This document shows, one piece after another, positions 58,495 to 63,617 of a DNA stretch of 63,702 nucleotides (positions within the stretch are counted from its first letter, which is position 1; the number at the start of each line of letters is the position of its first letter). The translations under genes were made by a program, and so were the position numbers. The notes beneath the pieces are model-generated. The model was given only the letters and a program-made list of their open reading frames with translations. It was not told where the DNA came from and ran no database searches. Origin of the DNA: a bacterium (GTDB taxonomy: Bacteria; UBA4055); assembly GCA_029559475.1 (NCBI GenBank), contig JAKQBN010000032.1:1-63702 (forward strand), written 5' to 3'.

Positions 58495-59415
58495 TTATTT
58501 ATTCGCTTTGTCTTTTTCCATCCTTCTCTTAGCTATATCGTAATCAATGACGCACCGGAATCCGACTCCGCCTGATGAATTTGAAATATCTATCGCGCTC
58601 CGGCTGAATGTCCTGCACTGTTCCTGTTTTGAAAACCACGATCCGCCTCTGGGTATCCTTAATTTTCCATATCCAGCATTCGGCTTTTTGTTTCCCGGAT
58701 AGGCATCTAGAATACCGTAAACCCATTCCGCGGCATTTCCTGACAGATCATAAATACCTCTGCTGTTCGGCCTGAAGCTTTTAACAGGCGCGGGATTTCC
58801 CTGAGACATCCTTTCGCCGTATTTAGCTTTCTCAGGACTAATAGCATTTCCGGTAGCATATTCGTAATTATTACTGTCTTTCGCCGCGCATTCCCATTCC
58901 GCTTCGGTAGGAAGCCTTTTACCTGCCCATTTGGCGTATTCGAGCGCATCGTAGTAATCTACGTCTACAACAGGCTGGCTGGGATCATTGAACTTTCTGT
59001 CTTTCGAATGTGCCATACTTCCCATCGGTTTGTAGCCTGTAGCTTTTAGAAATTTCTGAAACTGAGCATTAGTAACTTCAGTTTCATCCATATAGAACGC
59101 CTGAACCCTTACTTTATGCGCAGGCTTTTCCAGATCCGACCCGCTATCGCTGCCCATTATGAATGCCTGGGCAGGAACAAGCACCATTTTTTTATTGTCT
59201 TTTGAATAATAGTATCTTTCGTCCAAAGCTCTTATCTTTTTCAGCTTCTGGGCTTTTTCGGCATCCGAACTTGTCTTATATAATGTCGTGTCCTGAGGAA
59301 CAAAATTTTTCTTCGTTGCGTCAGGGGAAATGTCATAAAGCGATTCCTCGTCTTTTGCATGCACCACGGTAGTAAATACAAGCGCGCATACAACTGCACA
59401 TATTATTCTTTTCAT
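58495..59415 (-). CDS. Exported SUMF1/FGE-like domain protein
   Basis: This 306-aa protein has a signal peptide (residues 1-20, ending VHAK), a charged linker with an LKKIRALDERYYY segment, and an SUMF1-type domain from about 75. Landmarks are MVLVPAQAFIMGSDS, YMDETEVTNAQFQKFL, KRLPTEAEWECAA, GIYDLSGNAAEWVYG, RGGSWFSKQEQCR and GVGFRC. Only the second of the two FGE cysteines is present (Cys in KQEQC), so formylglycine generation is unlikely. It sits 12 bases after a lipoprotein gene and probably acts with it in the envelope. Confidence 0.85.
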   Translation of the reverse strand: MKRIICAVVCALVFTTVVHAKDEESLYDISPDATKKNFVPQDTTLYKTSSDAEKAQKLKKIRALDERYYYSKDNKKMVLVPAQAFIMGSDSGSDLEKPAHKVRVQAFYMDETEVTNAQFQKFLKATGYKPMGSMAHSKDRKFNDPSQPVVDVDYYDALEYAKWAGKRLPTEAEWECAAKDSNNYEYATGNAISPEKAKYGERMSQGNPAPVKSFRPNSRGIYDLSGNAAEWVYGILDAYPGNKKPNAGYGKLRIPRGGSWFSKQEQCRTFSRSAIDISNSSGGVGFRCVIDYDIAKRRMEKDKANK

Positions 59416-60105: not shown

Positions 60106-60140
60106 ATGCAGTATAAATAACTTTGGAACGGAGCTGTATT

Positions 60141-61730
60141 ATGCGAATGTCAAATTTGTTCTTCTTCAGTGATAAAAATTCACCTTCGGGAACTGATCTT
60201 AAAAGCGATATGCTTTTTAAAAAGGCTAATCTGACCGTAAAAGATCCTTCTAACGGTATTATTCTTATGCCGGTTCTGATAAAAAGTATTGAGAAGTTGT
60301 CAAATCATTTAAGTTCATCACTTGAGAAAACCGGATTTCAGCAGGTCGGTATACCGCCTGAAGTTATAGCTGAAGACGGCTTTTTTGCTCTCGGAAGAAA
60401 ATTCATCAGCTCCTATAAACAGCTTCCTTTAAAACTTTATCAGATCAGTTCCGGAGCGACGGATAAAGTGAGGTCAAAATTCAGCATTATACTGAGCGGA
60501 TCATTTTTGAAACTGGATGCTTGCGTATTTGATCGGGATTCTGAATCCGCCGATATTTCAATTTCAGCGCTGACAAAAAATATTTCGGACAATTTTAGCA
60601 GACTAAATCTGCCCTTCTTCACGGCTGATAATCACGAGAATAATCTTATAGTTGTCCCTTCAGAAAAAGCCGAAGACAGGTTCTTCAAATGCCCGGAATG
60701 CGGATGCTGCGCATCAGAAAACTCCGTTCTGTCAGTACCGGAACCTATACCTGTTTCAAATGTTGAAGCCGGCCTGACTGAGCTGTACACACCGGAGATA
60801 AAAACGGTAAAACAGCTCGTTGAATTCACAGGCATCCCTGAGCATCAGATGGTAAAAACCATAATCTATAAAATGATTTACGCCGAAGAAGAAAAGTTCG
60901 CCGCGGTTCTGATTCGTGGCGATCTCGACATTAACGAGATCAAGCTAAAAAAATTCATTAACTGCGAAAGTCTTGAACTTGCATCGGAGAACGATATCAG
61001 AAAACTGACAGGCGCAGAAGTGGGTTTCGCCGGACCTTTTAACCTTAACAAGAAATTTGAGATCATCGGCGATAATTCTATCCTGAAAACCGATCATTTC
61101 CTGTGCGGTCTGAATAAAACCGATTATCATAATATCAATGTCCGGTTCGGCCGCGACATTCCACTGCCGGACAAGATCGCTGATCTTCACAGAACGAAAC
61201 AAGGCGATGTCTGCGCGTCCTGCGGCATCGGCAAGCTTGATGAAATTAAAGGATTTATTACCGCAAAGATATCAAAATGCGGGCCGGATGGATCAAAATC
61301 CAGAAATATCACTTTTGACAACAGGGGCAGTCAGGATGTTGCACATACATCATTTTTAAACCTGAACATAACCTCCGTTCTGGGACTTGCCGCCGAATCC
61401 AATAATGACGCATACGGATTAACCTGGCCGGCTTTCATAGCGCCATACGATGCAGTAATAATCGCCGCGGATCAGGAATTTACAGATCAGGCTGAAAAGT
61501 GCTACACAGAGCTGTTAAATTCAGGATACGATGTATTAATAGATGACAGGGATTTTTCGCCGGGATTCAAGTTCAAAGATGCTGACCTGATCGGAATACC
61601 TTACAAGATCATTTTCGGCAAAAAAGCCGGCGCCGGTTCCGCGGAGATCAAATCGCGCATAAATTCGGACAGAAATATAATTCAATATGAAAACATCGTT
61701 GAGTTCTGTAAAAAAATACAGTTGAATTAG
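60141..61730 (+). CDS. Degenerate prolyl-tRNA synthetase homologue with YbaK-like editing domain
   Basis: The start is placed at the ATG at 60141 (CGGAG upstream; an in-frame TTG at 60123 precedes the RBS). The 529-aa protein aligns by eye with bacterial ProRS throughout: ISSYKQLPLKLYQI, a YbaK-type insertion (MVKTIIYKM, FAAVLIRGDLDINEIKLKKF, VGFAGPFNL), YGLTWPAFIAPYDAVII, and an anticodon-binding end (DVLIDDRDFSPGFKFKDADLIGIPYKIIFG). The catalytic core is damaged. Motif 2 FRDE.RPR is ATDKVRSKF, the THEE loop and about 30 residues before SSYKQLP are missing, and motif 3 GIG.R is ITSVLGL. It cannot easily be a normal synthetase; an editing or regulatory role is inferred. Confidence 0.8.
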   Translation: MRMSNLFFFSDKNSPSGTDLKSDMLFKKANLTVKDPSNGIILMPVLIKSIEKLSNHLSSSLEKTGFQQVGIPPEVIAEDGFFALGRKFISSYKQLPLKLYQISSGATDKVRSKFSIILSGSFLKLDACVFDRDSESADISISALTKNISDNFSRLNLPFFTADNHENNLIVVPSEKAEDRFFKCPECGCCASENSVLSVPEPIPVSNVEAGLTELYTPEIKTVKQLVEFTGIPEHQMVKTIIYKMIYAEEEKFAAVLIRGDLDINEIKLKKFINCESLELASENDIRKLTGAEVGFAGPFNLNKKFEIIGDNSILKTDHFLCGLNKTDYHNINVRFGRDIPLPDKIADLHRTKQGDVCASCGIGKLDEIKGFITAKISKCGPDGSKSRNITFDNRGSQDVAHTSFLNLNITSVLGLAAESNNDAYGLTWPAFIAPYDAVIIAADQEFTDQAEKCYTELLNSGYDVLIDDRDFSPGFKFKDADLIGIPYKIIFGKKAGAGSAEIKSRINSDRNIIQYENIVEFCKKIQLN

Positions 61731-61790: not shown

Positions 61791-62771
61791 ATGACAAAAG
61801 CAGTAAGCTACAAAGAACTCGGTCTTTCCAACACAAGAGAAATGTTCGAAAGAGCAATGAAAAATCAGTATGCGGTACCGGCATACAATTTCAACAATCT
61901 CGAACAGCTCCAGGCTATCATTTACGGCTGCATAGAATCGAAATCGCCGGTAATTGTCCAAGTTTCCAAAGGAGCAAGAAGCTACGCGAACTCAACGCTT
62001 CTCAGATACATGGCTATGGGCGCTGCCGAAATGGCTAGAGAAATGGGATCGAACATACCGATCTGCCTCCACCTTGACCACGGCGATTCATTCGAACTCT
62101 GCAAATCCTGTATTGACAACGGCTTCTCCTCGGTAATGATCGACGGTTCTCATCTCCCTTATGATGAAAACGTAGCGCTGACAAAACAGGTAGTCGAATA
62201 TGCACACGCGAGAGACGTATCGGTTGAAGGCGAGCTCGGAGTACTTGCCGGAATAGAAGATGAAGTGTCATCTGCGGTCTCGCACTACACTCATCCCGAG
62301 CAGGTGGAGGATTTCGTTAAAAAAACAGGCGTTGACAGCCTTGCTATTTCAATAGGCACATCTCACGGAGCTTATAAATTCAAAGTAAAACCCGGCGAAT
62401 CCGTACCTCCGCTCCGCTTTGATATCCTTGAAGAATGCGAAAAAAGAATACCCGGCTTCCCCATCGTACTTCACGGTTCATCATCCGTACTTCCAAAGTA
62501 CGTCGACATGATAAATCAGTACGGCGGAAAAATGGAAAGCGCCGTAGGTGTTCCCGAAGAACAGCTAAGAAAAGCGGCGAGATCGGCGGTATGCAAGATC
62601 AACATCGACACTGACGGCAGAATGGTCGTAACAGCTATCGTAAGAAAAGTCTTCACTGAAAATCCTTCAGAGTTTGACCCCAGAAAATATCTCGGACCAG
62701 CCAGAGACGAACTCAAGAAAATGATCATGGACAAGAACCGCAACGTACTCGGGTCGGCTGACAGATACTAG
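61791..62771 (+). CDS. fba: Class II fructose-bisphosphate aldolase
   Basis: The 326-aa zinc enzyme of glycolysis/gluconeogenesis cleaves fructose-1,6-bisphosphate. Metal and phosphate sites are visible: PAYNFNNLEQ, HLDHGDSFE (catalytic Asp and zinc His), EGELGVLAG (zinc Glu), ISIGTSHGAYKF and VLHGSSSV, plus KINIDTD. RBS AGGAG lies seven bases upstream. The recombinase gene begins 12 bases after the stop. Confidence 0.95.
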   Translation: MTKAVSYKELGLSNTREMFERAMKNQYAVPAYNFNNLEQLQAIIYGCIESKSPVIVQVSKGARSYANSTLLRYMAMGAAEMAREMGSNIPICLHLDHGDSFELCKSCIDNGFSSVMIDGSHLPYDENVALTKQVVEYAHARDVSVEGELGVLAGIEDEVSSAVSHYTHPEQVEDFVKKTGVDSLAISIGTSHGAYKFKVKPGESVPPLRFDILEECEKRIPGFPIVLHGSSSVLPKYVDMINQYGGKMESAVGVPEEQLRKAARSAVCKINIDTDGRMVVTAIVRKVFTENPSEFDPRKYLGPARDELKKMIMDKNRNVLGSADRY

Positions 62772-62783
62772 GGAATCATTATC

Positions 62784-63617
62784 TTGAAAGAATTATCAGA
62801 ATACAACCGCTTATTGAGGCTCAAGAACTACAGCCTTAATACTATAAATTCATACAACCACTTCTTCGAGAAATTCCTCGCTCATTTTCATGGAAAAGAT
62901 GTTGATTCTCTGACAAAAGAGCAGATCACGGACTTTTTGTATCAGGAATGTCTGAAAGGTATGTCCTACGGATATCAGAACCAGTTGATCAATGCCATCA
63001 AATTCTATTATGAAAAAGTTCTGGGAAGAAAAAGGGATTTCTACAATATACCGAGAGCTAAAAAACCTCAAAAGCTCCCCGTGGTTTTCAGTGAAGAGGA
63101 AATAACAATTTTATTGAATCAGGTTAAAAATCTCAAGCATAAATGCATACTGTTCCTTATCTATTCGGCAGGTTTAAGAATAAGCGAATCAGTAAATATG
63201 AAGGTCGCGGACATCGACTCAACGCGAAACCTTGTCATAATCAGGGGTGGAAAAGGTAAAAAGGACAGAACCTCTCTATTATCCCATAAATTGCTGATCA
63301 TGCTCAGAGAATACTATAAAGAGTACAGACCGAAAGAATTTCTCTTTGAAGGCGAAACCGGCGGACAATATTCAGTCAAAAGTATTCAGAATATATTCAA
63401 TAAGGCACTCGCTTCATCAGGGATCAAAAAAGAGGCGACGGTACACTCTCTACGGCACAGTTTCGCGACACATCTTCTTGAGAGAGGAACGGATTTAAGA
63501 TATATCCAGGAACTTTTAGGGCACAACAGCTCCAAAACGACCGAGATATATACTCACATAACAAAAAAGGGAATGGATAAAATTGCCAGTCCGCTCGACA
63601 ACCTCGATATACAGTAA
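62784..63617 (+). CDS. Tyrosine recombinase (XerC/D-like, integron-integrase-related)
   Basis: The 277-aa protein starts at TTG (AGGGAA upstream). It has an N-terminal SAM-like core-binding domain (1-85) and a catalytic domain with Arg132 (AGLRISE), Lys about 157 (GGKGKKDR), His221 and Arg224 (HSLRHSFATH), His247 (LLGHNSS) and Tyr256 (TTEIYTH). The ending KKGMDKIASPLD resembles IntI and Bacteroidota Xer-like enzymes. The extra insertion typical of integron IntI (before the HxxR box) is absent. It is followed immediately by two related palindromes at the window edge. Confidence 0.9.
   Translation: MKELSEYNRLLRLKNYSLNTINSYNHFFEKFLAHFHGKDVDSLTKEQITDFLYQECLKGMSYGYQNQLINAIKFYYEKVLGRKRDFYNIPRAKKPQKLPVVFSEEEITILLNQVKNLKHKCILFLIYSAGLRISESVNMKVADIDSTRNLVIIRGGKGKKDRTSLLSHKLLIMLREYYKEYRPKEFLFEGETGGQYSVKSIQNIFNKALASSGIKKEATVHSLRHSFATHLLERGTDLRYIQELLGHNSSKTTEIYTHITKKGMDKIASPLDNLDIQ

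Follow-up and report, generated by a model that had tools for sequence, protein, structure and literature searches.

Archaeal ThrRS-ed is a truncated threonyl-tRNA synthetase (ThrRS) without a catalytic site (PMC9976931; PMC7373986). One synthetase charges the tRNA, and a catalytically dead paralogue that has editing and anticodon domains does the proofreading in trans (PMC9976931, PMC7373986, PMC11295145). The trans-editors described in the INS superfamily each consist of a single domain, and trans-editing domains as a rule have no RNA-binding domain (PMC11295145). INS of Escherichia coli prolyl-tRNA synthetase (ProRS) confers no tRNA specificity by itself and relies on the anticodon domain, which reads G35/G36; it tolerates acceptor-stem changes, and Ala-tRNA(Pro) of the human type is also deacylated (PMC3973320). 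By what means binding at the anticodon directs the CCA end into an editing site some 70 Å distant is an open question (PMC3973320). Streptomyces ProRSx is a duplicate of a bacterial ProRS that took on a new role (PMC9437257).

Here, we describe P0001, a 529-amino-acid relative of bacterial family II ProRS (TIGR00409 / NF006625) encoded in a draft genome (G000) of Candidatus Delongbacteria. Full-length colinearity, INS, and the anticodon domain are shared with that family, but the catalytic motifs are lost and a second ProRS would do the charging. By analogy, archaeal ThrRS-ed is its closest functional parallel, as an inactive synthetase that retains its editing and anticodon domains again stands beside a synthetase without an editing domain. 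ThrRS-ed, however, is a threonine enzyme of Archaea with a DTD-like editing fold (PMC7373986), whereas editing in P0001 belongs to a PF04073 domain of the ProRS type; P0001, moreover, retains most of its catalytic domain in degenerate form, and the charging enzyme belongs to another family. ProXp-ala, YbaK, ProXp-x, and ProXp-ST1/ST2 have a homologous PF04073 domain, and the expected substrate of P0001 is that of ProXp-ala. Their specificity comes from the acceptor stem (ProXp-ala) or a ProRS complex (YbaK), whereas P0001 brings its own anticodon domain; with its degenerate core and PF03129, it is not a single-domain ProXp-ala or YbaK. ProRSx remains able to charge proline, which it attaches to a special tRNA (PMC9437257), whereas P0001 has lost the charging motifs. 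In the limited set of literature searched, no paper described a dead ProRS retained for editing.

Reading frame, lost charging site, and kept domains

The window (the whole stretch of DNA analyzed, 63,702 nucleotides) contains an open frame at 60141-61730 (ATG at 60141, TAG ending at 61730, no internal stops), identified by ORF reading, Pfam, and NCBIfam as the coding sequence of a catalytically degenerate family II ProRS paralogue; this and all features below lie on the forward strand unless stated otherwise. The same frame offers a TTG at 60123 as an alternative start, which is less probable than the ATG; directly 5′ of the ATG, a Shine-Dalgarno-like GGAG was read from the sequence (60126-60140).

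The protein is colinear with bacterial ProRS over its full length, and the closest solved structures, which align with most of it, are bacterial ProRSs (5znj, E value 5.5e-61; 2j3l, 3e-55). Profile scores differ by domain. The editing domain PF04073 scores 87.8 bits (gathering score, 25.5), which places it in that superfamily, and the anticodon domain PF03129 scores 60.4 bits; the synthetase core reaches 15.3 bits, below the Pfam cut-off of 29.3. An intact relative scores 80.9 (editing), 67.7 (anticodon), and 96.7 bits (core) for the same domains. TIGR00409 gives about 240 bits (240.3; 227 in the genome search) versus a cut-off of 306.7, and NF006625 gives 294.3 bits versus 558.

Residues were compared across 38 aligned family II proteins (E. 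coli numbering), and near-invariant positions were counted. In the catalytic part, 21/62 and 8/23 such positions are kept, the former in the degenerate N-terminal half (residues 1-183; 60141-60689; 40 gap columns). At a deletion point between residues 82 and 83 (60384-60389), the stretch with the THEE loop (E. coli 109-112) is absent, with P108-E112 deleted. Motif 2 is reduced to ATDK in place of FRDE (residues 106-109; 60456-60467), with R140T and E142K, and further catalytic losses are R146K and the deletion of GG203-204. Motif 3 is left as TSFLNLNITSV for GCYGIGxxR (residues 403-413; 61347-61379), in which GCYGIG (442-447) is replaced and the ATP-binding arginine R450 is a serine. The motif 1 proline (P72) is kept in the N-terminal remainder. 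P0001 thus departs from functional family II ProRS (TIGR00409) in motifs 2 and 3, in the TxE loop, and in score.

The INS (YbaK-like) editing domain (residues 184-358; 60690-61214; PF04073 match at 60789-61130) keeps 14 of 16 near-invariant positions, including the equivalents of T257, K279, G336, P340, D350, G362, N364, and H369. K239 (60855-60857) corresponds to E. coli K279, the K279A mutant of which is editing-defective (PMC3973320), and H330 (61128-61130) corresponds to H369. In the anticodon-binding domain (PF03129; residues 438-525; 61452-61715), all 12 near-invariant positions are kept. A sequence-only reading of this DNA had described an open frame nearly colinear with ProRS, without the motif 2 arginine, THEE loop, and motif 3 arginine and with a well-kept YbaK-like insertion (with its lysine) and anticodon domain; each of these points is confirmed by the alignments and profiles.

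Domain-wise constraint and the charging enzyme of the cell

Per-domain trees give P0001 an end branch of 9.82 in the catalytic part, versus a median of 0.47 and a maximum of 2.31 in other intact ProRSs; for INS it is 0.62 (median, 1.07), and for the anticodon domain it is 0.60 (median, 0.75). Across 630 pairs of intact ProRSs, INS identity lies a mean of 20.9 points below that of the N-terminal catalytic half (maximum, +0.9); in P0001, it lies a mean of 7.0 points above. In comparison with the intact enzyme of the relative G001, INS has pN 0.30 and pS 0.87; for the catalytic part, the values are 0.49 and 0.71. No stop is seen in P0001, while neutral drift to 41% identity gave a mean of 16.9 and a minimum of 6 (200 runs). 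P0001 has lost one function and retained two, which is not whole-gene decay; the earlier judgment that the gene does not look like decay agrees with a strong constraint on the editing and anticodon domains alone and with the absence of stops. Its split cannot be dated by synonymous distance, because dS between G000 and G001 for the family I ProRS and its neighbors is already 1.5 to saturated.

A genuine proS elsewhere in the genome, which the sequence-only reading suggested looking for, is present on another contig (G000:C7:51762-53249; P0007): a family I ProRS with 510 bits (cut-off, 437) and intact motifs (TSE, RWEMR, TSWGVSTR), without PF04073. P0001 is therefore not the sole proS. Within the G000 draft (2.28 Mb, 92% complete), a PF04073 search found no domain besides that of P0001; a YbaK/ProXp-ala gene, or another family II ProRS, may have been missed in this draft assembly. 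PF04073 is also absent from 8 of 13 Delongbacteria genomes, so editing of Ala-tRNA(Pro) is not required by all members of the phylum.

Relatives and a second degenerate ProRS

G000 and its nearest relatives belong to Candidatus Delongbacteria, of which 13 genomes were compared. All but two have a family I ProRS match, and four (G001, G002, G003, G011) encode a family II ProRS that is above the family cut-off and motif-intact in the alignment. The G002 draft has no family I match beside its family II enzyme. Both families were seen in G001, G003, and G011 (L069/L058, L070/L055, and L071/L062, respectively; the family I match in G011 is a fragment only), and G011 has two family II copies, 97% identical, on separate short contigs (L071:1984-3696, L072:4484-6160), likely a strain mixture. 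The drafts carrying the intact family II copies have 4-5% contamination; as a source of these copies, contamination is unlikely, since their mutual tree follows kinship and their GC content fits. Their neighborhoods share no synteny with the P0001 window.

The tree places P0001 as sister to the intact Delongbacteria family II enzymes (support, 100/99), and an approximately unbiased (AU) test did not reject its grouping with G001/G002 (p 0.153); given long-branch effects, P0001 may or may not be the orthologue of the G001/G002 gene. We infer, as the simplest history, that a redundant second ProRS gave up charging and retained proofreading. Within the phylum, no further protein with the losses of P0001 turned up, so that selection on the dead form is gauged only indirectly. 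A scan of genome contigs with P0001 alone found no relative, and one with the Delongbacteria alignment returned the intact enzymes and two distant ones only.

Dead forms were sought with TIGR00409 in about 790 genomes (a set of 386 and 395 more of another phylum, that of G345). This yielded one further full-length, sub-cut-off protein, P0006 (G116:C173:254-1903; locus L079), from a different phylum. In P0006, THEE is SHLV, FRDE is FIDW, and GCYGIG is replaced, while INS keeps 16/16 and the anticodon domain 11/12 near-invariant positions. End branches are 8.43 (catalytic), 0.69 (anticodon), and 2.15 (INS, above the median), and G116 also encodes a family I ProRS (546 bits). The domain-wise loss and the family I partner are those of P0001; unlike P0001, P0006 keeps the motif 3 arginine position and has another place in the tree, and overall identity between the two is 27%. 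Their union as one clade was not rejected (AU test; p 0.154 for full length, 0.114 for INS plus the anticodon domain), and a single origin would mean that the 100/99 grouping of P0001 with Delongbacteria is wrong; from the trees, an independent origin is favored but not proven. We lean toward a recurrent, unnamed class ("ProRS-ed") of dead family II ProRSs that would have arisen more than once beside a family I ProRS as anticodon-reading trans-editors.

Two genomes of the G116 phylum held no further dead ProRS, a second survey, centered on G116, covered mostly the same genomes as the first, and no full-length dead form was found among the 395 genomes of the G345 phylum. The sole low scorer in that phylum, G671, is present as two pieces at the ends of contigs, and a candidate in G129 (217 bits) is a fragment with motif 3 intact. 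In G315 (L077:1501-3165), a family I-like match occurs with a divergent family II ProRS (449 bits; branch, 2.21), which keeps THEE and most motif residues and may represent an earlier stage of the same process. A CxxC...CxxC arrangement (C184, C187, C358, C361; 60690-61226) frames INS in P0001, is present in P0006 as well, and may bind metal.

Candidate function and gene neighborhood

P0001 is probably a free-standing trans-editing deacylase of Ala-tRNA(Pro), the ProRS counterpart of archaeal ThrRS-ed, judging from its sequence; of the roles proposed earlier (trans-editing, regulation, or another role), the first has the best support. Family I-type ProRSs without INS misactivate alanine. In the proposed mechanism, tRNA(Pro) would be charged by the family I ProRS, which lacks INS, and P0001, no longer able to bind ATP or activate proline, would bind the anticodon arm of tRNA(Pro) via its own anticodon domain; the CCA end would swing into its INS site, where mis-attached alanine would be hydrolyzed in trans from Ala-tRNA(Pro). 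Retention of exactly INS and the anticodon domain would be expected, because E. coli INS depends on the anticodon domain for tRNA specificity, whereas the binding of ATP and proline would be dispensable; P0001 conforms to this. We infer that the gene is expressed and that its product binds tRNA(Pro) and removes alanine from it, and relatives indicate that the mis-attached residue is most likely alanine rather than cysteine or another amino acid.

The fully kept anticodon domain would also suit a regulator or sensor that binds tRNA(Pro) and controls translation or the metabolism of proline, in which INS would be a structural part or would bind the acceptor end; regulators that evolved from inactive synthetases are known, such as the HisRS-like part of GCN2. 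We regard such a role as unlikely, as the INS hydrolytic residues (equivalents of K279, H369, T257, and D350) and the ordinary INS rate point to kept catalysis, P0001 has no effector domain, and its neighbors suggest no proline regulon. Somewhat less probable still is that P0001 is a subunit or accessory factor that acts in complex with the family I ProRS or EF-Tu, comparable to YbaK or HisZ, and is hardly active by itself. The tRNA specificity of YbaK does arise from a complex with ProRS (PMC3973320), and the kept N-terminal parts, including P72, could hold a dimer, but with an anticodon domain of its own P0001 needs no partner for tRNA specificity.

Decay of a redundant family II ProRS after a family I takeover, with the frame open by chance, would fit the unconstrained catalytic domain and the co-occurrence of both families in G001, G003, and G011, which shows that redundancy existed. 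This is very improbable given zero stops against about 17 expected, INS and anticodon rates not above those of working ProRSs, and a loss that is domain-specific rather than even and that has the same pattern in G116. That P0001 is a ProRS active by unusual means, or a synthetase for another amino acid, is scarcely credible: every one of its best family matches carries the name proline--tRNA ligase, yet it falls below every curated NCBIfam ProRS cut-off, its core is below that of Pfam, and the motif 2 arginine and glutamate, TxE loop, and motif 3 arginine, which class II enzymes need to bind ATP and the amino acid, are missing. For annotation, the name proline--tRNA ligase, given by homology, would be wrong for P0001.

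As a trans-editor, P0001 would illustrate a route from a redundant synthetase to a proofreader. A natural enzyme with INS and an anticodon domain but no charging site would make the question of CCA-end guidance testable free of interference from aminoacylation.

A promoter of its own, proposed in the sequence-only reading, was not recovered by the scan, in which no sigma-70-like site lay upstream of P0001 on the forward strand at the threshold used; the divergent orientation of the upstream neighbor gene suggests that there may be one. P0001 is flanked by this divergent, lipoprotein-like gene upstream and an aldolase gene downstream. By eye, the upstream region encodes a secreted protein similar to the formylglycine-generating/sulfatase-modifying family (58495-59415, reverse strand), and a class II aldolase-like gene (61791-62771) lies 3′ of P0001, followed directly, near the contig end, by a tyrosine recombinase (XerC/D-like) ORF with a TTG start (62784-63617).
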